63,927 nt of DNA from an uncultured Pelagibacteraceae bacterium (GTDB taxonomy: Bacteria; Pseudomonadota; Alphaproteobacteria; Pelagibacterales; Pelagibacteraceae). The DNA lies in assembly GCA_902607805.1 (NCBI GenBank), contig CACLLR010000002.1:1-63927 (forward strand), given 5' to 3'. A model generated the notes under the pieces. The model saw only the letters and a program-made list of their open reading frames with translations. It was not told where the DNA came from and did not search any database. Made by a program: the position numbers and the translations under genes. Positions within the stretch are counted from its first letter, which is position 1. Each line of letters opens with the position of its first letter. Positions 2 to 53,825 of the stretch are shown here, one piece after another.

Positions 2-1078
2 TTTAACAATGGATTAACAAAACAAGAAATACATCCCTTTTGGTTAAGAGAAAGAATAAGTGAAGAAAAATATCTTGATAAAGGAACAAATCAAAGACTT
101 TTTGATCCTGCCTCTCTTGATAGTGAAATTAAAATTAAAGAGGTAAAAATAAAAGATAATTTTTTAGAAATAAAATTTACTGATGGTGTTAATTCTAAGG
201 TAAATTTAGATAAGATAGCAAGCGAATTTTCAGGTGAAGATAATGTATTAAAACCTATTGATAAAATAAAATGGGACTCAAAACTAAAAGATGTAAAAAA
301 ATTTAATTTTTCAGATGATATTTATGATTCAAAAGAAATGTATGAAATTTTAGTTTCTTTTTATAAATATGGTTTTGTAATAATTAAAAATGTTCCAACA
401 AGTAATAATTATTTAGTAAAGTTTGCAAATTCAATTGGAAGTGTAAGAAGAACAAATTTTGGTGAACATTTCAATGTAAAATCTAAAAGAGATCCTAATG
501 ATTTAGCTTATACAAGTCTTCATTTATCACCACATACTGATAATCCTTACAGAAATCCAGTGCCTTGTATACAAATTTTACATTGCATTGAAAATGAGGT
601 TGAAGGTGGTTATTCAACTTTAGTAGATGGTTACACTGTTACTGAAGATTTAAAACAAGAAAATCCAGATTATTATAATATATTAACTGAGATTAAAGTA
701 AGATTTCAGTTTATAGATAAAGAGGTTGAATTGGAAAGTTGGTCAGAACTAATTCATTTAGATGGTCAAAAAAATTTTAAACAAGTAAGATTTAGTACTA
801 GATTAGATTATGTTCCAATATTAGATAAAAAAAAATTAGATTTATATTATAAGGCTAGGAAAAAATTATCGGATTTATATAATTCTAAAAAATATAGAAT
901 AGAATTTAAGTTAATTCCTGGAGACCTATTAATGATGGATAATTATCGTTCTTTACATGGTAGAACTTCTTTTGATGCTAGCCAAGGCAATAGATTTTTA
1001 CAAGGATGTTATATAGACTACGATAGTACAGAAGGTAAATTAAGATACTTAACAAAGAAGTTTAATATAAATGCCTAA
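2..1078 (+). CDS. Gamma-butyrobetaine hydroxylase/TmpA-like 2OG-Fe(II) (TauD/TfdA superfamily) oxygenase, 5'-truncated by window edge
   Basis: Frame 2 stays open upstream of the listed ORF start: FNNGLTKQEIHPFWLRERISEEKYLDKGTNQRLFDPASLDSE... (DUF971-type N-terminal domain) running into SPHTDNPYRNPVPCIQ (HxD) and a distal SLHGRTSF His; typical BBOX/TMLH architecture. Confidence 0.85.
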   Translation, partial: FNNGLTKQEIHPFWLRERISEEKYLDKGTNQRLFDPASLDSEIKIKEVKIKDNFLEIKFTDGVNSKVNLDKIASEFSGEDNVLKPIDKIKWDSKLKDVKKFNFSDDIYDSKEMYEILVSFYKYGFVIIKNVPTSNNYLVKFANSIGSVRRTNFGEHFNVKSKRDPNDLAYTSLHLSPHTDNPYRNPVPCIQILHCIENEVEGGYSTLVDGYTVTEDLKQENPDYYNILTEIKVRFQFIDKEVELESWSELIHLDGQKNFKQVRFSTRLDYVPILDKKKLDLYYKARKKLSDLYNSKKYRIEFKLIPGDLLMMDNYRSLHGRTSFDASQGNRFLQGCYIDYDSTEGKLRYLTKKFNINA

Positions 1079-1628
1079 AGTTAGCTTTAAAGAAATGAAA
1101 AATGGTACAAAAGAAGATTATATTCTTTTAGATAAATATGAAAAAAAATTTGCTGAAGGAACTGCAGATAGAATTCTAAAATTTATGTCTGGATTAAATG
1201 AAACCCTAGAAGGATATCAAGTTTCAAGATTAGAACATTCTCTTCAAAGTGCAACTAGAGCTTACAAGAACAATGAAACTAAAGAAATGGTAGTAGCTGT
1301 ATTGTTGCATGACATTGGAGATGAATTGGCTCCTATGAACCATTCTGAGTACGCCGCTGCTGTTCTAAAACCTTATGTTTCAGAAAAAACACATTGGATT
1401 GTTGAAAAACACGGAGAATTTCAAACATATTATTATGCTCATCATTTAGGAGGAGACAAAAACAAAAGAGAGAAATATAAAGGACATAAATATTACCAAG
1501 CATGTATTGATTTTTGTGAAAAATATGACCAAGTATCTTTTGATCCTAACTATGAATCTTTCACTCTTGAATTCTTTAAACCAATGGTTAAAGAAATATT
1601 TGCTAGAAAACCCTACAGTCATTATTAA
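1071..1628 (+). CDS. HD-domain protein of the PhnZ/TmpB-type (HD mixed-valent diiron oxygenase-like) family
   Basis: SRLEHSLQ, LLHDIGD, NHSEYAA, VEKHGEF, KYDQVSFD give the His/HD/His/His/Asp ligand pattern; ATG overlaps the 3' end of the upstream 2OG oxygenase by 8 nt. Confidence 0.75.
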   Translation: MPKVSFKEMKNGTKEDYILLDKYEKKFAEGTADRILKFMSGLNETLEGYQVSRLEHSLQSATRAYKNNETKEMVVAVLLHDIGDELAPMNHSEYAAAVLKPYVSEKTHWIVEKHGEFQTYYYAHHLGGDKNKREKYKGHKYYQACIDFCEKYDQVSFDPNYESFTLEFFKPMVKEIFARKPYSHY

Positions 1629-1640
1629 AGAAAGCAATTT

Positions 1641-2501
1641 TTGACACTTCGTGACTCTTTAATAGCTGCGATAGTTCCAATCTTTTTAGGATTTGGTTTT
1701 GTTATTGCTAAACCAGCAATGGTGGAACTACCTCCTTTTTTATTGATGGGTTTACGATTTACTTTTGTAGCATTGCTTTTAGTTTGGTGGTTTCCAATAC
1801 CAAAAGGTTTTCTTAAAAGAATATTTTTTGCATCTCTTATAGCAAATACAACACAATACAGCATTACATACACTGGGTTAAGTTTTATAGATGCATCTGC
1901 AGCTGTATTACTTGTTCAAACTGAAGTTCCTTTTGGAGTTTTATTTGCATATTTTATGCTTAAAGAAAAACCCACAATAAGAGCTTTGATAGGAATAGCT
2001 ATCGCGTTTGTAGGTGTTTATATTTTAACTGGTTCGCCAAATTTAGATGGTAAATTTTTTGGTGTAACTTTAGTAATTGTAGGATCAGGTGTTTGGGCTT
2101 TAGGACAAGTTTTAGTTAAACCATTGAGTAAAGAAATAAATCCATTAGCACTAGTCGCTTGGCTAGGTTTATTTTCTGGTCCAATATTAATAGGACTTTC
2201 AGCTATATTTGATGGCAATACAATTAGTTATTTTAAAAATGCAAGTTTTGAAACTTGGATGATTGCAATTTATTTAGGTTTTATTATGCAACCAATTACA
2301 TATGGGTGTTTTTACTATGTTTTAAAAAACAATCCTTTATACAAAGTTTTACCAATAGTCACTATGGGTATTCCTCCTACTGGATTATTAGCTGCAATTT
2401 TTCTGTTAGGTGAAGATCCTACTAAAGAATTATTTATTGGTGGTACTATAATTATTGTTGGAGTAACTTTAATAGTGTTTACGAAGCCAAAAAAAAATTA
2501 A
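1641..2501 (+). CDS. EamA/DMT-family transporter (TTG start)
   Basis: Multi-TM protein with two EamA-like repeats; follows HD gene closely. Confidence 0.85.
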   Translation: MTLRDSLIAAIVPIFLGFGFVIAKPAMVELPPFLLMGLRFTFVALLLVWWFPIPKGFLKRIFFASLIANTTQYSITYTGLSFIDASAAVLLVQTEVPFGVLFAYFMLKEKPTIRALIGIAIAFVGVYILTGSPNLDGKFFGVTLVIVGSGVWALGQVLVKPLSKEINPLALVAWLGLFSGPILIGLSAIFDGNTISYFKNASFETWMIAIYLGFIMQPITYGCFYYVLKNNPLYKVLPIVTMGIPPTGLLAAIFLLGEDPTKELFIGGTIIIVGVTLIVFTKPKKN

Positions 2502-3057: not shown

Positions 3058-3525
3058 ATGTCAGTACATTTAGCAACAAGAAAAATAATTAAAGAATGGA
3101 CGGATTATAATGAGCATATGAACATGGCTTATTATGTTTTAGTTTTTGATGAAGCTTGGGAAACAGTTCTTAATAAATTTAATATGGGTGGTGTTACAGC
3201 AAAAAAAACAAAGAGAAGCACTATGGTAGTTGAAACTCGAACAACTTACAATAATGAAGTTAAAGAAAATGATGAAGTTGAAATAATTTGTACACATTTT
3301 GATCATGATAAAAAAAGATTACATCTGAAATGTGAAATGTACGAAAAAAAAACAAAAACTTTATCTGCTACTATGGAAAGTATATCCCTTTATATAGATT
3401 TGGATAAAAGAAAAGTAATTGAATTTGAGGAAGATAAACTCAAAATAATGGATAAATTTATAACAGAAAATAAATCTAATTTTAAATCAGATAATCTAGT
3501 TTTGTCTGAAAAACTTAAGAAATAA
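3058..3525 (+). CDS. Hotdog-fold acyl-CoA thioesterase (betainyl-CoA thioesterase-like)
   Basis: EWTDYNEHMNMAYYVLVFDEAWE hotdog thioesterase motif. Confidence 0.75.
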   Translation: MSVHLATRKIIKEWTDYNEHMNMAYYVLVFDEAWETVLNKFNMGGVTAKKTKRSTMVVETRTTYNNEVKENDEVEIICTHFDHDKKRLHLKCEMYEKKTKTLSATMESISLYIDLDKRKVIEFEEDKLKIMDKFITENKSNFKSDNLVLSEKLKK

Positions 3526-3534
3526 AATTATTTA

Positions 3535-4506
3535 ATGGTAAAAAAAAATTTTATTCCAAAAATAAACGTTTCATCACTATTAAATAATAATTTTAAAACT
3601 AATAAATCAATTAAAACAATTAAAAAAATTGAAAACGCATGTATAAATATTGGTTTTTTCCAAATACTAGGCCATGGAATAAGTTCTAAAAAAATATCAA
3701 ACTTATGCAAAGTTGGCAATAAGTTTTTTAATTCTTCAGAAAGTAATAAAAGAAAATTAGCTCCAAAAAAATGGAATAAAAGAAACAAAAATGTTTATAG
3801 AGGTTATTTTCCAAATGATGTGAATGGTAAAGAAGGATTGGATATAGGTGATTTAAAAATAACTTATAAATATTCTAAAAAATTAAATGACAAATATATT
3901 GAATATCTTAACCTTAATAAATCAATGGATAAAAATTCTATTAAAATTCTATCAAATTACTTCGATAATATTTTTTTATTAGGGGAAACTTTATTTAAAA
4001 GCATTATTAAGCTTTATAATAAAAACACTAATATTTCAAAAAAAGCATTTTTGAGATTAAAAACACTTAGTACATTAAGGTTTAATTATTATCCTAAACA
4101 AAGTAAACCTATTGAAATATCAAAACAGGATGGGAAAGCTCTTGGTTGTGAAACTCATGTAGATAGCGGTGTTTTCACAATTTTGTATCAAGATAAAAAA
4201 GGAGGACTACAAGTTCAAAATAGAAAAAATAAAAAGTGGTACGATGTACCTTTTAATAAAAAAGCTTTAGTTGTAAATACTGGAAGAGCTCTTGAATTTC
4301 TAACGGAGGGTAAATTTAAAGCAACAAATCACAGAGTGCTTTGGAATAAAACTAAAAGAATGTCAATTCCTTTCTTTTTTGAACCTTCTTATGATTTTGT
4401 AATGTCCAAATCATTCTTAAACTCAAAAAAGAAAAATAAAAATGGTTTGATTTATAAAAAATTTTTGCATAAATCTTTAAAAAAATTTGTTGAATATCAA
4501 AGATAA
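3535..4506 (+). CDS. Isopenicillin-N-synthase-like 2OG-Fe(II) oxygenase
   Basis: GFFQILGHGI, ETHVDSGVFTILYQD (HxD), ATNHRVLWNKTKRMSIPFFFEP (H...RxS). Confidence 0.9.
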   Translation: MVKKNFIPKINVSSLLNNNFKTNKSIKTIKKIENACINIGFFQILGHGISSKKISNLCKVGNKFFNSSESNKRKLAPKKWNKRNKNVYRGYFPNDVNGKEGLDIGDLKITYKYSKKLNDKYIEYLNLNKSMDKNSIKILSNYFDNIFLLGETLFKSIIKLYNKNTNISKKAFLRLKTLSTLRFNYYPKQSKPIEISKQDGKALGCETHVDSGVFTILYQDKKGGLQVQNRKNKKWYDVPFNKKALVVNTGRALEFLTEGKFKATNHRVLWNKTKRMSIPFFFEPSYDFVMSKSFLNSKKKNKNGLIYKKFLHKSLKKFVEYQR

Positions 4507-5076
4507 CTACAACTTTTTAGCTGTAATTTTTACATCATTTAAAAATTCTTTTCTTTTTTTTTCAGACACAAAGGGTACAGCAAAATATCTTTTGTAAGTA
4601 ACATCTTTTATTCCACATATATTAAACACTCCCCTTCTCAATCTTTTAGTCGGCATATTTAAAAAAAAAGTTCTAATAGCAAACTGAGGAGATCCATATG
4701 TACAAAATACAATCGCTTTTTTTCCTTTTAATTTACCAATTGGATAACCGTAGTTTCCAAATAATTTTTTAAAACTAAATGCCCAAGGAGGTGCTAAAAC
4801 CTTATCGATCCATCCTTCGACAATTGCGGGCATTCTAAAATTCCATATTGGAGCAATTAAAGCTATTACATCACATTTTTCAATTCTATTTCTATGATCT
4901 AAAACTTCTTGAGAAGGATCTTCTCCTGCAAAAACAGGATCAAATTTTTCTTTATACAAATCAACACAATCAACTTTATTACCATTTTCCTCTGCCGTTT
5001 TTACAAATGTTTCTTTTATCGCTGCGTTAAAAGATTTATCGTTATAGTGACCATAAACTAAAAAAATATTTGACAT
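4507..5076 (-). CDS. NAD(P)H dehydrogenase (quinone)/flavodoxin-fold reductase
   Basis: IFLVYGHYNDKSFNAAIKETF; DVIALIAPIWNFRMPAIVEGWIDKVL; AIVFCTYGSP. Confidence 0.82.
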   Translation of the reverse strand: MSNIFLVYGHYNDKSFNAAIKETFVKTAEENGNKVDCVDLYKEKFDPVFAGEDPSQEVLDHRNRIEKCDVIALIAPIWNFRMPAIVEGWIDKVLAPPWAFSFKKLFGNYGYPIGKLKGKKAIVFCTYGSPQFAIRTFFLNMPTKRLRRGVFNICGIKDVTYKRYFAVPFVSEKKRKEFLNDVKITAKKL

Positions 5077-5095
5077 AATATTTATAGATTTTTAT

Positions 5096-5566
5096 TTATT
5101 CATTTCTTAAAACGGGAAATACTGGTCTCGATTTTTGAAATAACTTTTGATACTCCTGTTTAATACATTTATCTGAAACATATTGCATATTTGAATTATC
5201 TGAAATTTTCTTTGCTTCATCATTATGTATACCATATTGTAACCACAAAACTTTAGAACCTACTTTTGCAGCTTTTTCTGCAATACCTGGGGTTTCTTTA
5301 GATGGACGGAATACATCTACTATATCAATTGGTATAGAAATATTTTCAATATCATCTACTACAGTTTCTCCATTTATTTTCTCACCTTTTGCAAATGGAT
5401 TCACGGGAATTACTTTATATCCAAAATCTTGCATGTATTTCATTACAACATTTGCAGGTTTTCTTTTTAAATTCTTTCGATCTTCTCCTTTTTTTTCTGA
5501 GCTTACACCTATCATCGCTATTGTTTTTGAATTTTCTAATATTTTTTTTATATGATTATCGTTCAT
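5096..5566 (-). CDS. CoA-binding-domain protein (YccU-like)
   Basis: KTIAMIGVSSEKKGEDR...VIPVNP...VLWLQYGIHNDEA. Confidence 0.88.
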   Translation of the reverse strand: MNDNHIKKILENSKTIAMIGVSSEKKGEDRKNLKRKPANVVMKYMQDFGYKVIPVNPFAKGEKINGETVVDDIENISIPIDIVDVFRPSKETPGIAEKAAKVGSKVLWLQYGIHNDEAKKISDNSNMQYVSDKCIKQEYQKLFQKSRPVFPVLRNE

Positions 5567-6348
5567 TTATTTTTCCAATTAGGTTTTCTTTTTTCAATAA
5601 ATGCAGATATTCCTTCTTTAGCATCCATTGCCATCATGTTTTCAGTCATAACTTTGCTTGTAAATTTATAAGCTTTTCTTAATGACATTTCAGATTGTTT
5701 GTAGAAAGCTTTTTTTCCAATTTTAATTGTTAAATTTGACTTTGAGGCAATTTTTCTAGCCAAAGATAAAACTTCATAATTCAATTTTGATTTAGTGTAA
5801 TGATCATTGATTAAACCAATTTCTTTTGCATATTGGGCGGTAATAGGGTCGCCTGTTAATAACATCTTCATCATTCTTTTTTTGCTTACTTTTCTGCTTA
5901 CTGCAACCATAGGAGTGCTACAAAACAGGCCGATATTAACTCCGGGTGTTGCGAACATTGCATCATTTGTGCTTAAAGCTAAATCGCAACTTGCAGCTAA
6001 TTGACATCCCGCAGCAAAAGCTGCACCATGAACTTTTGCTATTACTGGTTTTCTTCCTTCTACAATCTCTAACATTAAATCTGAACACAAATTAAACAAT
6101 TTTTTATATTCGCTTTTTTTCTTAAAAGTTTTGAGTTCTTTTAAATTGTGACCTGCACTAAATCCTTTACCGGAACCTTCTAAAATTATTACTTTTGTGG
6201 TGTTATCTTTATTTAACTTTTTAAAAATAGTTATTAATGATTTTAAAGTAATAGAAGATAGTGAATTATAAGATTTAGGATCATTAATTAATATTGATCG
6301 AATTCCATTTTCTATAGTCTTAACATTAACATTTAAAATTTTTTTCAT
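5563..6348 (-). CDS. Enoyl-CoA hydratase/isomerase family protein
   Basis: EGSGKGFSAGHNLKEL; KVHGAAFAAGCQLAASCDLALST crotonase motifs. Confidence 0.92.
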   Translation of the reverse strand: MKKILNVNVKTIENGIRSILINDPKSYNSLSSITLKSLITIFKKLNKDNTTKVIILEGSGKGFSAGHNLKELKTFKKKSEYKKLFNLCSDLMLEIVEGRKPVIAKVHGAAFAAGCQLAASCDLALSTNDAMFATPGVNIGLFCSTPMVAVSRKVSKKRMMKMLLTGDPITAQYAKEIGLINDHYTKSKLNYEVLSLARKIASKSNLTIKIGKKAFYKQSEMSLRKAYKFTSKVMTENMMAMDAKEGISAFIEKRKPNWKNK

Positions 6349-7979: not shown

Positions 7980-8353
7980 AGCTTAGCATCTTGTGTTGTC
8001 ACATGACAATCATATTTTTCTGGTTTTACAAACATTTGATTTGTATCTTCAAATCTTCCTTTTTTGATTGTATCTACCCAAGCTACATAATCTGCTGGAA
8101 ATAATTTTCTCGCTTCTGGAGTTGGACAAATAAAATCGGCAATAACATTATTACCATCATTTTTTAATTTAATTGCAGCATCTGCCATTCTTTTTGCTTG
8201 TCTTTTTCTACCTTCTTCTGAAAAATCCCAATCATTTGCTTCTTTCCTAATCTCATCTGCATTTAATCTTTTTGATTTAATCAATTTATCTAATTCATTG
8301 GCTAAAGTTGTTTTGCCTGCGCCTGGCAATCCCATAATTAAAATTATTTTCAT
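7946..8353 (-). CDS. P-loop kinase, adenylylsulfate (APS) kinase-like
   Basis: IILIMGLPGAGKTTLANEL Walker A; LNADEIRKEANDWDFSEEGRKRQAKRMADAA resembles APS kinase DGDxxR region; overlaps downstream nucleotidyltransferase. Confidence 0.8.
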   Translation of the reverse strand: MKIILIMGLPGAGKTTLANELDKLIKSKRLNADEIRKEANDWDFSEEGRKRQAKRMADAAIKLKNDGNNVIADFICPTPEARKLFPADYVAWVDTIKKGRFEDTNQMFVKPEKYDCHVTTQDAKLWASKIAKEIK

Positions 8354-9588
8354 TAAATATCTTCTAAAGGATGATGAGACATAAGTTCAAGATTATTTTT
8401 TCCAACTAAATACTGTTGCTCAAGTTTAACTCCTTCTTTACCTCCTACCTTACCAATATATGTTTCAACAGTAATAGTCATATTTTTTTCAAAATGACCT
8501 TCTCTTTGACCTCCATCAGTTGGATATTTTATTTGTGGCCATTCATCACAAAGTCCAATACCATGAACCATGCACGAATACCTATTACCATAATACTCTT
8601 CAGGGAGTTTCCAAGATTTTTGAGTAAATTCATTAAATGATATTCCAGGTTTAATTAATCTTGCATTGTGTTGAATATGTTCAACAGCTATTTGATATAA
8701 TTTTTTTTGATTATCATTAAATTTGTTTCCTTCTACAAATGTTCTTGATATATCGGCACAATAACCATAAGGACCAACCATATCTGTATCAAAAGATACT
8801 ATTTCACCCGTTTGAATTACTTTGTTGCTGCTTTCTTGCATCCAAGGATTTGTTCTTTCACCAGAAGATAAAATTCTACATTCAATCCATTCACCTCCAT
8901 GTTCAATATTTGTTTTATGCAAAATTGACCAGAGTTCATCCTCGGTCATTCCAGCTTTTAATTCGTTACGCATTTTTGAAACACCAATTTCAGCAACATC
9001 AATTGCAGCTTTCATACATTTTAATTCCTCTGAAGATTTAATAACTCTAGCCATTTCTAGAATTAATTTAGCATCAACAACTTCAATACCTAATTTATTT
9101 AATGCAGTTACAGAAGGACCGTTAATAACATCTATTGCTACTTTTTTACTTTTAAAATAAGAATTTGATAAATCTTTAATTTCATTAATCCATTTTTTTA
9201 ATTGAGAACTTGCTTGATCTCCATTACTAAAATAATCCCAAGTTATTGCCGGTCTTATTTCGTCAATTAAATTTAAGTGCTTGGATAAAATTTCACAGTT
9301 AAAATACTCATAAAGTATTACTGGTCCATCAACAGGAATAAAACAATACCTGGTTAGATTATGCATATTATAAACACTCATATTAGTTGTGTCTAATGCA
9401 TATCTAATATTAACTGGATCAAATAATATACAAGCTTCAAGATTATTTTTTTCTAATTCTTTTTTTACTCTGTCAAGTCTGTAAGATCTAAGCTTATCAA
9501 AATTAATTTCATCTTCTCTTAATCTTTTTTTGGTTAAATAATTTGAATTAGGTTTTAAATGAGGATTAATTTTTCTATTAAATTTCAT
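8353..9588 (-). CDS. dddP: M24-family DddP-like protein (putative DMSP lyase)
   Basis: FDPVNIRYALDTTNMSVYNMHN, GGEWIECRILSSGERTNPWMQES, IVSFDTDMVGPYGYCADISRTF, CMVHGIGLCDEWP, TVETYIG, VKLEQQ: matches remembered Roseobacter DddP motifs including D/D/D/H/E/E metal ligands; activity not proven. Confidence 0.7.
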   Translation of the reverse strand: MKFNRKINPHLKPNSNYLTKKRLREDEINFDKLRSYRLDRVKKELEKNNLEACILFDPVNIRYALDTTNMSVYNMHNLTRYCFIPVDGPVILYEYFNCEILSKHLNLIDEIRPAITWDYFSNGDQASSQLKKWINEIKDLSNSYFKSKKVAIDVINGPSVTALNKLGIEVVDAKLILEMARVIKSSEELKCMKAAIDVAEIGVSKMRNELKAGMTEDELWSILHKTNIEHGGEWIECRILSSGERTNPWMQESSNKVIQTGEIVSFDTDMVGPYGYCADISRTFVEGNKFNDNQKKLYQIAVEHIQHNARLIKPGISFNEFTQKSWKLPEEYYGNRYSCMVHGIGLCDEWPQIKYPTDGGQREGHFEKNMTITVETYIGKVGGKEGVKLEQQYLVGKNNLELMSHHPLEDI

Positions 9589-9589
9589 A

Positions 9590-10765
9590 TCAAATTATAT
9601 TTGTTGCAACCCATTTATGAAAATGATGGGTTGGATTATCCATAACTGGAGAAAAATTGCCACCATTATAAGAAGGAGAGTTTCTTCCTATTTGCATTCT
9701 CTGAATTATGTCGACATCTTCTTTTTGAATATCTTTCCACAGTTTATGATTTTGTTTTCTTAATGATTTGAATTTCTTTGAATTTGCTGCATTTTCTCCA
9801 ACATAATATAACTCCATATGTTCAATTGTATATTCATGATTTACTGGTTCTAACCAATAAGCATAAAAATGATCTTTATGTATGCCCAACATTACATTTG
9901 GAAATAAAGCTATATATTCTGCTATTTTTTCTTTTTTTTTGGGCCAATTAGGAAAGCAAGGAAATTTTTTATTACCTTTAAGTCTTGGATTATAAACTTC
10001 AGTTCCTTGGCCTGCAAATCTATTTGGTAGTCCTTGAATGTGATAATGATCATCAATTTTCGAGTATGAATTAAGTCCAGGGTGAACCCAAGGTAGATGA
10101 TAACTTTCACAATAATTTTCTATAGCAAATTTCCAATTACATTTTGCAGTTAGTTGAAAATATCCAAAATCTTTAGAGTGTTTTATTAATTTTCTATCTT
10201 TTAAAGGCCAAAATTTTGCCCATCTATCACTTAAAGGTTTTATATAATTTTCAAATGAAATTTCATTGTTACTTATATTTATCATTATTAAATCAAGCCA
10301 AACGTAAGTTCTTATTTCTTTTAAGTTATTATCAGACTTGTTAAAACTTGAAGTTTTATGTTTATTCATTCCTCCTATATGAGGTGTAGCAATTAGATTT
10401 CCATCAAAATTATAAGACCAAGAATGATAAGGGCATCTTATCACATTTTTGTTTTTTCCTATCTCACTTACAAGTTTAACTCCTCTATGACTGCAAACAT
10501 TATGAAAAACTTTAATTTTATTTTTTTTGTTTCTCACTATTAATAAAGGCAGGCCTAAAAGGTCTAGAGGTTTTATATCTCCTATATTTGGTAAAGAACT
10601 TGCAACTCCTATTACAACCCACTTATCTTCAAAAATTTTTTTTCTTTCAATAAAAGTATATTCTTTACTAGTATAACATTCATTTGGAAGTCCATGAGCT
10701 TTGTGGATCGGTTTGTTTACCAAATCTAATTTTTTTTTATTAATAATATTATAAATTTCTGACAT
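9590..10765 (-). CDS. Rieske non-heme iron oxygenase alpha subunit (choline monooxygenase/GbcA/ring-hydroxylating type)
   Basis: NVCSHRGVKLVSE...IRCPYHSWSYNFDGNL Rieske CxH/CxxH; NWKFAIENYCESYHLPWVHPGL catalytic Fe site. Confidence 0.92.
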   Translation of the reverse strand: MSEIYNIINKKKLDLVNKPIHKAHGLPNECYTSKEYTFIERKKIFEDKWVVIGVASSLPNIGDIKPLDLLGLPLLIVRNKKNKIKVFHNVCSHRGVKLVSEIGKNKNVIRCPYHSWSYNFDGNLIATPHIGGMNKHKTSSFNKSDNNLKEIRTYVWLDLIMINISNNEISFENYIKPLSDRWAKFWPLKDRKLIKHSKDFGYFQLTAKCNWKFAIENYCESYHLPWVHPGLNSYSKIDDHYHIQGLPNRFAGQGTEVYNPRLKGNKKFPCFPNWPKKKEKIAEYIALFPNVMLGIHKDHFYAYWLEPVNHEYTIEHMELYYVGENAANSKKFKSLRKQNHKLWKDIQKEDVDIIQRMQIGRNSPSYNGGNFSPVMDNPTHHFHKWVATNII

Positions 10766-16984: not shown

Positions 16985-17713
16985 ATGAATTTTTCACTGG
17001 AAATTGGTCCGCATACTGAGCTTGAAAATTTACCTCCAGTTAAGGATATTTATGTAACTTTACTACCTGGAGGGGATTATAAGGAGACGTGTAAAAAGTC
17101 TGAGGATTTAGTAAAAAAAGGTTTTAATCCAATACCTCACTTTCCTGCAAGATCCATATCAAATGATGCAGAATTAAAAGATTATGTTTCTATATGTAAA
17201 GATGTGGGTGTTAAGCAAGCTTTGGTTATAGGTGGAAGTAGAGAACCAGTTGGAAAATTTGATAGCTCTTTTCAAATCTTGGAGACAGGATTTTTTAATG
17301 GGATAAAGATCGGAATTGCTGGACATCCTGAGGGGAGTCCTGATATATCCGATTCAAATTTAGAAAAAGCAATGAAAGATAAAAAGCCTTATGCAGATTA
17401 TATAGTAACTCAATGGTTATTAGATTATCAGCCTATTATTGATTTTATTTCTAAACAAACAGTACCAGTGCATGTGGGAATTACTGGGCCAATGAAAATT
17501 TCAAGCTTAATAAAGTTTGCGAATATTGTAGGGGCAAAAAATTCCATTAATTTTCTAAAATCTAATTTTAGTAAGGCGTTAGATTTATTGAAACCTAAAG
17601 ACCCTAATGATTTAATTGGGAAAGTTAAATCGCATACTGATTTTTTCCACATTTATACATTCGGCGGCTTGAAGGAAACTAACAAGTGGTTGAAGGAGAA
17701 TAATTATGTCTAA
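16985..17713 (+). CDS. metF: Methylenetetrahydrofolate reductase-like protein (compact)
   Basis: MNFSLEIGPHTELENLP...IPHFPARSI...GGSREPVG...KIGIAGHPEG; ~242 aa, divergent. Confidence 0.7.
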   Translation: MNFSLEIGPHTELENLPPVKDIYVTLLPGGDYKETCKKSEDLVKKGFNPIPHFPARSISNDAELKDYVSICKDVGVKQALVIGGSREPVGKFDSSFQILETGFFNGIKIGIAGHPEGSPDISDSNLEKAMKDKKPYADYIVTQWLLDYQPIIDFISKQTVPVHVGITGPMKISSLIKFANIVGAKNSINFLKSNFSKALDLLKPKDPNDLIGKVKSHTDFFHIYTFGGLKETNKWLKENNYV

Positions 17714-19064
17714 AGAATTTGATTATAATAAAATAAGACACGTAACTTCAGTTGATCAATCTGATAGAAAAGTGCCATACAATTTAAGACAAAGTGGTCC
17801 AACAAAAGTTGAGATGCTTATATCTACAAGAGTAAGAAAAAATCCTTATTGGCATCTTTCTATGAGAGCTGGTTGTTGGAGAGCTACAGTTTATAATAGA
17901 GTTTACCATCCAAGAGGATATGTAAAACCGGAAGATGGTGGTGCGATGGTAGAGTACGATGCAATAGTAAATCATGTTACGATGTGGAATGTTGCATGTG
18001 AAAGACAAATAAGAGTAAAAGGTCCTGATGCAGAAAAATTTACAGATTATGTAATTACAAGAGATGCAACCAAAATTTCACCTATGAGAGCAAGATATGT
18101 TATATTATGTAATGCTTACGGTGGAGTTTTGAATGATCCAATACTTTTAAGAATTTCAAAAGATGAATTTTGGTTTAGTTTATCTGATAGTGATATCGGA
18201 CTTTACTTGCAAGGTGTTAATGCTGATGAAAGATTTAATGTAGAAATTGATGAAATAGATGTAAGTCCAGTTCAAATTCAAGGTCCTAAATCAAAAGCAT
18301 TAATGCAAGATCTATGTGGAGATCATGTTGATTTTGATAATATGCCTTTTTATGGTTTAGCAGAAGCTAAGGTTGGAGGAAGAAGTTGTGTAATATCTCA
18401 ATCAGGTTTTTCAGGTGAAGCAGGTTATGAAATATATTTAAGAGAATCTACTTTATATGCAGAAGATATGTGGAATGCTGTTCTAGAAGCAGGTAAAAAA
18501 CATAATCTTATGGTTATAGCGCCAGCTCACCATAGAAGAATTCAAGCAGGAATACTTTCTTGGGGACAGGATATGGATAATCAACATAATCCATTTCAGT
18601 GTAATTTAGGTTACCAAGTTTCTTTGTCTGGAAAAGGTGAATGGAATAAACAAGGAGATTATGTAGGCAAAAAAGTACTAGAAAAAATGGGAAGTGATAT
18701 TAAGGCAGGACAAAAACCATATAAACTTCAACTTGTTGGACTAGAATTAGGAGGTAAACCAATTGAAGAGTATGCACCTGATTTTTGGTTAATTTCCGGA
18801 GAAAGCGGAGGAGAGCCAATCGGTTTTATTACTTCTCCTTGGTATCATCCTGAAAAAAAACAAAATATTGCAATGGGTTATGTGCCCTTTGATGGAACAT
18901 TGAATTCGAATGGTTTTCCAAAAGGTAAAGTTGGAACTAAATATAAAGTGCATTTGCCTGACAAATACTCAGAAACACCAGGTCAGCCAGTAGATGCAGT
19001 CGTTGTAGATATTCCATTTAAAGAATCTTACAACGCTAATACCAGAGAGGTCGTAAAAGGATAA
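17706..19064 (+). CDS. GcvT/DmdA-superfamily folate-dependent methyltransferase (demethylase), substrate unknown
   Basis: WNVACERQIRVKGPDAEKFTDYVITRD; GGVLNDPILLRISKDEFWFSLSDSDIGLYLQG; QSGFSGEAGYEIYL; overlaps MTHFR-like gene by 8 nt. Confidence 0.85.
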   Translation: MSKEFDYNKIRHVTSVDQSDRKVPYNLRQSGPTKVEMLISTRVRKNPYWHLSMRAGCWRATVYNRVYHPRGYVKPEDGGAMVEYDAIVNHVTMWNVACERQIRVKGPDAEKFTDYVITRDATKISPMRARYVILCNAYGGVLNDPILLRISKDEFWFSLSDSDIGLYLQGVNADERFNVEIDEIDVSPVQIQGPKSKALMQDLCGDHVDFDNMPFYGLAEAKVGGRSCVISQSGFSGEAGYEIYLRESTLYAEDMWNAVLEAGKKHNLMVIAPAHHRRIQAGILSWGQDMDNQHNPFQCNLGYQVSLSGKGEWNKQGDYVGKKVLEKMGSDIKAGQKPYKLQLVGLELGGKPIEEYAPDFWLISGESGGEPIGFITSPWYHPEKKQNIAMGYVPFDGTLNSNGFPKGKVGTKYKVHLPDKYSETPGQPVDAVVVDIPFKESYNANTREVVKG

Positions 19065-51485: not shown

Positions 51486-53825
51486 ATGGCTGAAACTAGT
51501 TTAAATATTAAAGAACCGGGCTTAAATGTTTTGCCACCTGGAGTTGAAAGATACATAGTAAGCGGTGGCGGTATAACAGGAATTCAAATTTTACCTGAAG
51601 ATGAAATAGAAATTATAAATAATGAAGGTAACCAAATTTGTGAAATTTCAGTTTTTAACAAAGATGGAAAATCAGAAACTGGAATTTTAAATTTAAAAAA
51701 TGATAAAGATGCTTCGGAAATAAAAAAAATTCTTTTAGCTAATGACGAAAATTCTAAAATAGCAGCATATCAATTAAAAAAGAGAAATTTAGATATTTTA
51801 AAATCCAAATCTTCTATTGTTTTCGATAAAAATACAAATTGGGGAGAAAAAATAAAACTAAAATCGAAAGATAAATGTTACTGTATTTTTGCTGCGCCTG
51901 GACAGGATATGTTAATTCACGAACAAAACCCACCAACTGATTTAACTGTTTTTATTAAAAGAGCAAAAATTACCAAGGACAAAGAACATACGGTAATCCC
52001 AGATCCAATGTATGACCCTATGGATGAAACAAACATAGATCGTAAAACATCAATTTCTTATCAAGTTAAAGAAGGAGATTATATCCAAATTATTTCACCA
52101 ACAGGAAGACAATGTTCTGATTTTGTAGCTTTTGATACTTCAAAATTAGATAAAAAAATAGAAAAAGGTTTAGATTGGCAAACAACAAGAACTTTTATGG
52201 GAAATACTTTTCCAGGACCAGGTTTGTTTTCTAAATTTTATGACACTGATCATGAACCTTTAGTAGAAGTTGTTAGAGATACAGTTGGTAGACATGATAC
52301 TTTTAATTTAGCATGTACATCAAAGTACTATGAGGATTCTGGATATTTTGGTCATCCAAATTGTTCTGATAATTTAAATAATTCTATGGAAAAATTTGGT
52401 GCTAAAAAAAGAAAAGGTTGGCACGCAATTAATCTTTTTTTTAATACATCTGCTGGTGGATTAAATTCGGTATTATCAGACGAGTCTTTTGCTAGACCAG
52501 GTGATTATGTGATATTTAGAGCTTTAAAAGATTTAACTTGTGGAACTACTGCATGTCCAAGTGATATTGATGCTTGTAATTCATGGAATCCAACTGAAAT
52601 TTTTGTTAGAACTTATGATAAAAAAAAAGAATTTACGAAATCTTTTGCATTTAGAATGAAAACTGACTCTGAAACAAAATTAACAAAAAATACTGGCTTT
52701 CATGCAAAAACTTCTAAGCTTACAAGAAATTTTATTGATGCAAGAGGGTTTTGGTTGCCAAATGACTACACAAAGCACGGAGTGATTAATGAATACACTG
52801 CATGCCGAGAAAAAGCAGTTGTTATTGATTTATCTTCATTAAGAAAATTTGAAATTTTAGGACCTGATGCAGAAGAATTAATGAATTATACACTAACAAG
52901 AAATGTAAAAAAACTTTCAGTTGGCCAAGTAGTTTATTCATCTATGTGTTATGAAAATGGATCAATGTTTGACGATGGCACATTATTAAAAATGAGTGAC
53001 CACGGTTTTAGATGGGTATGTGGCGATGAATATGCTGGAGAATGGTTAAAAGAACAAGCAAAGAAAAAAAACTATAAAGTTTTTATTAAAAATTCAACTG
53101 ATCAAATTAATAATATTTCATTACAAGGTCCTAAAAGTAGAAAAATACTTGAAAAATTTGTGTTTACACCTCCAACTCAACCTTCCATTTCTGAACTACA
53201 GTGGTTTAGATTTACTATTTGTAGAGTTAAAGAACTAAATGGAATTCCTATTATAGTTTCAAGAACTGGTTACACGGGAGAATTAGGATATGAAATTTGG
53301 TGTCATCCTTCTGATGCGCCAAAAGTTTGGGATCAAGTGATTGAGTCTGGAAAAGATGAAGGATTAATTCCTGCAGGATTTGGTGCTTTAGATTTATTAA
53401 GAATTGAAGCTGGATTAATTCTATTTGGAAATGAATTTGATGGTCAAGTCGACCCTTTTGAAGCTGGAGTTGGATTTACAGTTCCTTTAAAAACTAAAAC
53501 AGATGATTTTATAGGAAAAGAAAACTTGATTAAAAGAAAAGAAAATCCACAAAGAAAACTTGTTGGATTAGAATTAATTGGAAAAGAAAAAGCGAACCAT
53601 GGTGATTGTGTGCATATTGGAAGATCTCAAGTAGGAATTGTTACTAGTGGATGCATATCTCCAGCCTTAAATAAAAATATTGCATTATGCAGAATAGACG
53701 TAGGTCATTCTGAAATTGGCAAAGATGTAGAAGTTGGCAAGATTGATGGTCACCAAAAAAGAATTCCTGCTAAAATTGTAAATTTCCCTCATTACGATCC
53801 ACAAAAACTTCGCGTAAAATCGTAA
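51486..53825 (+). CDS. tdm: Trimethylamine N-oxide demethylase (DUF1989 + GcvT folate domain fusion)
   Basis: N-terminal DUF1989 (GDYIQIISPTGRQCSDFVAFD) and C-terminal GcvT (GYTGELGYEIWCHPSDAP); LAC-TS, HPNC-SDN (+16) and TTAC-PSD (+64) match remembered 3-Cys zinc spacing of Methylocella Tdm. Confidence 0.9.
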   Translation: MAETSLNIKEPGLNVLPPGVERYIVSGGGITGIQILPEDEIEIINNEGNQICEISVFNKDGKSETGILNLKNDKDASEIKKILLANDENSKIAAYQLKKRNLDILKSKSSIVFDKNTNWGEKIKLKSKDKCYCIFAAPGQDMLIHEQNPPTDLTVFIKRAKITKDKEHTVIPDPMYDPMDETNIDRKTSISYQVKEGDYIQIISPTGRQCSDFVAFDTSKLDKKIEKGLDWQTTRTFMGNTFPGPGLFSKFYDTDHEPLVEVVRDTVGRHDTFNLACTSKYYEDSGYFGHPNCSDNLNNSMEKFGAKKRKGWHAINLFFNTSAGGLNSVLSDESFARPGDYVIFRALKDLTCGTTACPSDIDACNSWNPTEIFVRTYDKKKEFTKSFAFRMKTDSETKLTKNTGFHAKTSKLTRNFIDARGFWLPNDYTKHGVINEYTACREKAVVIDLSSLRKFEILGPDAEELMNYTLTRNVKKLSVGQVVYSSMCYENGSMFDDGTLLKMSDHGFRWVCGDEYAGEWLKEQAKKKNYKVFIKNSTDQINNISLQGPKSRKILEKFVFTPPTQPSISELQWFRFTICRVKELNGIPIIVSRTGYTGELGYEIWCHPSDAPKVWDQVIESGKDEGLIPAGFGALDLLRIEAGLILFGNEFDGQVDPFEAGVGFTVPLKTKTDDFIGKENLIKRKENPQRKLVGLELIGKEKANHGDCVHIGRSQVGIVTSGCISPALNKNIALCRIDVGHSEIGKDVEVGKIDGHQKRIPAKIVNFPHYDPQKLRVKS

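Follow-up and report, generated by a model that had tools for sequence, protein, structure and literature searches.

The two overlapping genes at the start of the analyzed DNA encode a 2OG/Fe(II) oxygenase and an HD-domain diiron oxygenase-like protein, and there is good support for regarding them as an oxygenase pair for quaternary amines, not phosphonates. Tentatively, and at not far short of an even chance, the pair may oxidize a quaternary-ammonium alpha-amino acid in two steps, with N6-trimethyllysine as the most likely substrate. The support computed in this work comprises the fold, the metal ligands, the partnership of the two genes, the loss of the phosphonate pocket, an Asp signature, and an association with carnitine genes. 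Overall, this is a real, widespread, and conserved oxygenase pair, a variation on TmpA/TmpB with an altered pocket and a quaternary-amine role that probably leads from trimethyllysine to gamma-butyrobetaine.

The window, that is, the whole 63,927-nt stretch analyzed, starts at base 1 of its contig (C2) in an assembly of 0.92 Mb that is 73% complete. The 2OG reading frame is open at its 5' end, where it is cut by the contig start, and it overlaps the HD gene by 8 nt, an overlap that the initial annotation had already read.

Features of the window, with positions counted from its first letter
Feature	Position	Strand	Remarks
2OG/Fe(II) oxygenase, TmpA/BBOX superfamily, Asp-type clade	2..1078	+	motif NDLAY + S-T-R-L-D
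HD-domain diiron oxygenase-like protein	1071..1628	+	ATG, 185 aa; clade separate from TmpB/PhnZ
EamA-family transporter	1641..2501	+	
4HBT thioesterase	3058..3525	+	matches C-terminal (thioesterase) part of carnitine 3-dehydrogenase model
IPNS-type 2OG oxygenase	3535..4506	+	
DddP-like gene	8353-9588		
GbcA-like Rieske gene	9590-10765		
DMSP-demethylase-like gene	17706-19064		
TMAO demethylase	51486-53825		just above cutoff

Three reactions are known for HD-domain diiron oxygenases, those of MIOX, PhnZ, and TmpB, and a Tyr/Glu loop has been described for PhnZ and TmpB (PMC8177086). The metal ligands of the window HD protein (H56, H80-D81, H91, H114, and D153) are complete, in keeping with the full pattern noted at the outset, and they are invariant across 15 orthologues of the order and across the wider clade as well. 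The protein has a generic Pfam HD match and scored below the cutoffs of both the TmpB model (NF049941; 27.8 bits, cutoff 300) and the Phn-HD model (TIGR03276; 34 bits, cutoff 214.6), and in a sequence search of the PDB, TmpB and PhnZ were the sole non-spurious matches. Its AlphaFold model (pLDDT 95.5) showed the PhnZ/TmpB fold: the only Foldseek matches in the PDB with E<=0.001 were ten PhnZ/TmpB chains, with PhnZ as the closest solved structure (E 5e-7). MIOX ranked next by Foldseek probability (0.99), yet at E ~0.2, and HD hydrolases in the PDB gave no significant match, so that the clustering with nucleotide phosphohydrolases envisaged as a contrary outcome did not emerge. The Pfam MIOX model (PF05153) matched 8 of 47 members of the HD clade (up to 3e-5) and did not match the window protein itself; in existing annotations, members of the clade appear as generic HD proteins or as part of the inositol-oxygenase family.

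A tree of 139 HD sequences split the window clade, where the nearest relatives of the window protein are named Pelagibacteraceae, from TmpB+PhnZ with support 100, and the distinct HD-oxygenase clade that had been suspected is borne out. Six PhnZ positions (Y24, E27, H62, K108, S126, and R158) showed little or no variation among 27 TmpB/PhnZ-type sequences, whereas the window clade has L/V, Y, D, Q, G, and E there, with the metal ligands unchanged; H62, K108, S126, and R158 of PhnZ, whose invariance was computed here, are presumably phosphonate contacts. All six positions are replaced in the modeled protein, which carries L46/Y49 at Y24/E27 and Q118 and E150 at K108/R158, and only one copy in the clade has the YxxE loop, confirming the early doubt about a Tyr/Glu gating pair. 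This turn from basic to acidic pocket residues would be expected if the leaving group bears an amine rather than a phosphonate. At L134:6212-7578, two tandem HD-clade genes lie just 3' of a gene for a Rieske-type oxygenase, one copy having YPGE at the gating position. A few genomes of the genus carry a second, PhnZ-like HD gene with a YGNE loop (L037:6411-6962 and L049:7520-8074), with no 2OG gene of the family adjoining.

The window 2OG protein is a member of the superfamily, yet it belongs to none of the TmpA, BBOX, and trimethyllysine-dioxygenase equivalogs. Its best match was the TmpA model (NF049936; 346.2 bits), whose cutoff of 400 this 5'-truncated protein does not reach, followed by the BBOX model (TIGR02409; 279 bits, cutoff 414.75) and the trimethyllysine dioxygenase model (TIGR02410; 204.8 bits, cutoff 268.3). 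TmpA binds phosphonate via N187, N287, and R288 (PMC9296572); the window protein has D, T, and R at these positions, and D and T at N191/N293 of BBOX. Of the 37 HD-adjacent 2OG proteins, 36 have Asp where TmpA has N187 and BBOX N191, the sole exception being a divergent protein in Luminiphilus, while the N287 position is S/T/P/N in the HD-paired proteins and the R288 position is conserved. The homologous residue of human trimethyllysine hydroxylase, Asp231, is thought to bind the alpha-ammonium of the substrate (PMC7764450). When the diagnostic columns were omitted, the HD-paired 2OG proteins grouped in a single clade (support 96) whose sister group is TmpA (98), and the NCBI trimethyllysine-dioxygenase equivalogs fell in a different one (99); hence, the Asp seems to have arisen twice, independently. 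Bacterial proteins above the NCBIfam trimethyllysine-dioxygenase cutoff were found at L287:1423-2580 and at L333-L337.

The 2OG and HD genes are a functional unit. Among 197 genomes of the order, 136 carried both genes, 10 the HD gene only, 7 the 2OG gene only, and 44 neither (Fisher 9e-27, uncorrected for phylogeny). Across the class, the HD gene was present in 16 of the 17 genomes with an Asp-type 2OG gene, compared with 112 of the 385 genomes overall (Fisher 1.5e-8, likewise uncorrected for phylogeny), and the pair was unlinked in five of the 16. The relation is asymmetric, since the Asp-type 2OG needs the HD gene and most HD genomes of the class (96/112) are without that 2OG. Adjacency of the two genes was seen in alpha-, beta-, and gammaproteobacteria, and pairs within 50 nt occurred in SAR11, Dongia, Alteromonas, Marinomonas, Halomonas, and Comamonadaceae. 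Most genomes of the genus keep the two apart: purF and gshA (or a DUF255 gene) flank the HD gene, and the 2OG gene is tens to hundreds of kb away; elsewhere, all 28 scored pairs were at most 50 nt apart. Because the genes are mostly unlinked in the genus, the partnership was judged on co-occurrence and not on linkage alone. Loci L034, L035, and L050 and about 30 others have the HD gene at the purF-gshA/DUF255 site, a placement for which a functional reason did not emerge, and no functional neighbors were found at the SAR11 loci of the separate 2OG gene. The window HD protein is nested in the purF-linked HD clade, no HD gene accompanies purF in its own genome, and the 2OG gene of a relative (G028) is followed directly, without an intervening HD gene, by a gene 91% identical to the window EamA gene; the pair thus seems to have been re-linked in the lineage of the window. 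One genome, G226, has an Asp-type 2OG gene (L330:7865-9013) and no HD gene, with an enolase-superfamily gene in the HD slot of its close relatives.

The neighborhood of the pair, in the window and among relatives, is associated with carnitine. Both a carnitine-type thioesterase gene and the IPNS-type 2OG gene lie within 3 kb downstream of the window pair; the thioesterase shares 69% (L193) and 61% (L194) identity with genes that relatives carry within their carnitine clusters, and the IPNS-type protein is 69% identical to that of L193:1116-2081 in the carnitine cluster of G015. On contig C4, the genome of the window also carries a BBOX-like gene. Genes for the catabolism of methylated compounds are abundant in the window. 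In one SAR11 family (f2), a BBOX-type (N-type) 2OG-CDH-BKACE series is divergent from ALDH-AACS-2OG-HD. Mesorhizobium and Rhodobacteraceae have BKACE-HD-CDH operons, in which the HD gene is flanked by BKACE on one side and by carnitine dehydrogenase/thioesterase genes on the other, with acyl-CoA dehydrogenase and CoA ligase genes present and an enoyl-CoA hydratase gene in some. In G356, the HD gene is beside thioesterase, BKACE, and carnitine dehydrogenase genes with the 2OG gene elsewhere in the genome, and in G090 ProX/ProW adjoin the 2OG-HD pair. The HD gene is present in every one of the five class genomes that have a trimethyllysine-dioxygenase equivalog, which come from only three families, and also in G602. 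The initial annotation had expected the pair to feed glycine betaine into neighboring catabolism, a claim that survives indirectly in that the gamma-butyrobetaine/carnitine genes of relatives end in glycine betaine. A TmpB-like HD gene (YIGE loop) beside a TauD-like 2OG gene was also seen inside the Pelagibacter carnitine clusters of G015 (L193:4647-5183 + 5189-6016) and G028 (L194:4343-4882 + 4885-5718), possibly a true phosphonate pair.

These data are compatible with a route in which the 2OG enzyme would hydroxylate C3 of trimethyllysine to give 3-hydroxytrimethyllysine, with its aromatic pocket holding the trimethylammonium group and the invariant Asp holding the alpha-ammonium, as is thought for trimethyllysine hydroxylase. 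The HD-oxygenase reaction on R-CH(OH)-X with O2 is established for phosphonates and, as a diol, for inositol. In the second step, the HD diiron enzyme would convert R-CH(OH)-X and O2 to RCOOH and HO-X, X being CH(NH3+)COO-, so that C-C cleavage of 3-hydroxytrimethyllysine would yield gamma-butyrobetaine and an unstable carbinolamine that would decay to glyoxylate and ammonium. Since this step would yield gamma-butyrobetaine directly, neither an aldolase nor an aldehyde dehydrogenase would be needed. Gamma-butyrobetaine would then pass via carnitine and 3-dehydrocarnitine to glycine betaine, and both of the downstream gene sets that were seen would start from it, the BBOX route of f2 and the probable acyl-CoA route of the rhizobia. 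That bacteria catabolize trimethyllysine with the HD protein cleaving the C2-C3 bond of 3-hydroxytrimethyllysine, in place of aldolase and aldehyde dehydrogenase, is a proposal to which we would give clearly less than an even chance.

Several observations run counter to this route, chief among them the rhizobial and rhodobacterial carnitine operons that have the HD gene without an Asp-type 2OG. An unlinked copy of the latter, which was predicted, was not found in the Mesorhizobium and Rhodobacteraceae genomes with BKACE-HD-CDH, so the HD protein has another substrate source there or another function. Carnitine-type BKACE is missing from many pair-bearing SAR11 genomes (G003, G005, and G048), several of them complete, and the fate of gamma-butyrobetaine in them is therefore not accounted for by the model. 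Furthermore, the aldehyde dehydrogenase of the f2 operon has no role in an aldolase-free route, the S/T found at the TmpA-N287 position is unlike the NN motif of TMLH, and G226 carries the 2OG gene without an HD gene. The HD subclades may differ in substrate.

The initial annotation had placed the pair with TmpA/TmpB or PhnY/PhnZ as a two-step cleavage pair; the hydroxylase/HD-oxygenase pairing and the quaternary-amine setting stood, but C-P cleavage fell to the scores, the tree, and the six pocket residues. Phosphonate degradation of either type is now very improbable, even though the TmpA model is the best match of the 2OG protein (346 bits, under its cutoff of 400), the HD fold matches PhnZ/TmpB, and the R288 position of TmpA is conserved. 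Against it, the six phosphonate/gating positions are replaced in the HD clade, the phosphonate-binding N187 and N287 of TmpA (PMC9296572) are replaced in the 2OG protein, both proteins lie in clades separate from TmpB/PhnZ and TmpA, and no phosphonate genes were seen beside the pair. In Halomonas urmiana, moreover, a pair of the window type directly adjoins a TmpA-type/TmpB-type pair, as would be expected if the former has a different function. On residues, scores, phylogeny, and this side-by-side arrangement, we rejected the phosphonate reading. It is equally hard to credit that the HD protein is a metal-dependent phosphohydrolase whose adjacency to the 2OG gene is incidental: most HD proteins are hydrolases (PMC8177086), the match to Pfam HD is generic, and purF and gshA flank the HD gene in most genomes of the genus, but the fold search, the phylogenetic profile, and the recurrence of close pairing with a hydroxylase across three proteobacterial classes contradict this. 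It was rejected on the fold search; the closest fold and sequence relatives are not hydrolases.

Direct cleavage of L-carnitine (or a stereoisomer or analogue) by the HD protein, with O2, to glycine betaine and glycolate is improbable. Carnitine, (CH3)3N-CH2-CH(OH)-CH2COO-, is formally an analogue of the TmpB substrate with CH2COO replacing phosphonate, the chemistry matches the known HD-oxygenase reaction type, and the substrate would already be at hand for the BKACE-HD-CDH operons without an Asp-type 2OG; however, such cleavage would be redundant with the CDH/BKACE route of the same operon, the 2OG partner has Asp where BBOX binds carboxylate with Asn, and an N-type BBOX is encoded separately at the f2 locus. 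Unlikely, albeit a serious contender, is the same two-step chemistry acting on a different cationic amino acid or quaternary amine (for example, trimethylornithine, a derivative of lysine or arginine, or 2-hydroxy-delta-valerobetaine), with HD subclades serving different substrates and hydroxylase partners. The Asp-type 2OG is lacking in 96 of the 112 HD genomes, GbcA-like Rieske proteins occur near HD genes in several loci, and in Roseicyclus (L241:9141-10004) a PhyH/chlorinating-enzyme-type 2OG gene, a different hydroxylase partner, overlaps the HD gene. Nonetheless, distant groups repeatedly show the association with carnitine genes, an indication that the product is gamma-butyrobetaine or carnitine.

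If the trimethyllysine route is true, SAR11 would have a path from free trimethyllysine to gamma-butyrobetaine and glyoxylate, and C-C cleavage by this branch of HD oxygenases would extend beyond inositol. Glyoxylate serves as a precursor of glycine. The glycine requirement of SAR11 is unusual (PMC6775983), and trimethyllysine (laminine) has been reported free in Laminaria seaweeds (PMC3890275). Carnitine biosynthesis from trimethyllysine has been stated not to be observed in prokaryotes (PMC8085414); our literature search for trimethyllysine with SAR11 or with the HD domain found nothing, and no bacterial description of a breakdown step by an oxygenase pair of this kind was found in the searchable literature. 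With the HD clade in 29% of the sampled class genomes (112/385) and about three quarters of those of the SAR11 order, a trimethyllysine pathway would be present in most sampled SAR11 genomes and in other proteobacteria.

Among known systems, TmpA/TmpB likewise consists of an adjacent BBOX-like 2OG oxygenase and HD diiron oxygenase, with about 31% identity between TmpA and the window 2OG protein in structural alignment and the same predicted fold and metal ligands in TmpB and the window HD protein. In contrast to TmpB, the window HD protein is without YxxE and equivalents of H62/K108/S126/R158; both window proteins are below the NCBIfam cutoffs, and 2OG proteins of the window type form a separate clade with Asp for N187 and S/T/P/N for N287. 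PhnY/PhnZ shares the two-step logic, but the HD pocket differs at six positions, and PhnY is, we presume, from a different 2OG family. MIOX, like the proposed HD enzyme, is a mixed-valent diiron HD oxygenase cleaving a C-C bond, and its Pfam model is matched by 8 of the 47 clade members; however, the fold match is not significant (E ~0.2), identity is low, and the window pair has no inositol context. BBOX has the superfamily, the fold, and the His-Asp-His iron site in common with the window 2OG protein, which differs in having Asp for N191; a separate BBOX-like gene is present in the same genome and at the f2 locus. Trimethyllysine hydroxylase (TMLH/TIGR02410) belongs to a separate clade, and the window 2OG protein falls short of its model (204.8 bits vs cutoff 268.3) and lacks the NN motif at the second site, yet the two have in common the Asp at the BBOX-N191 position.
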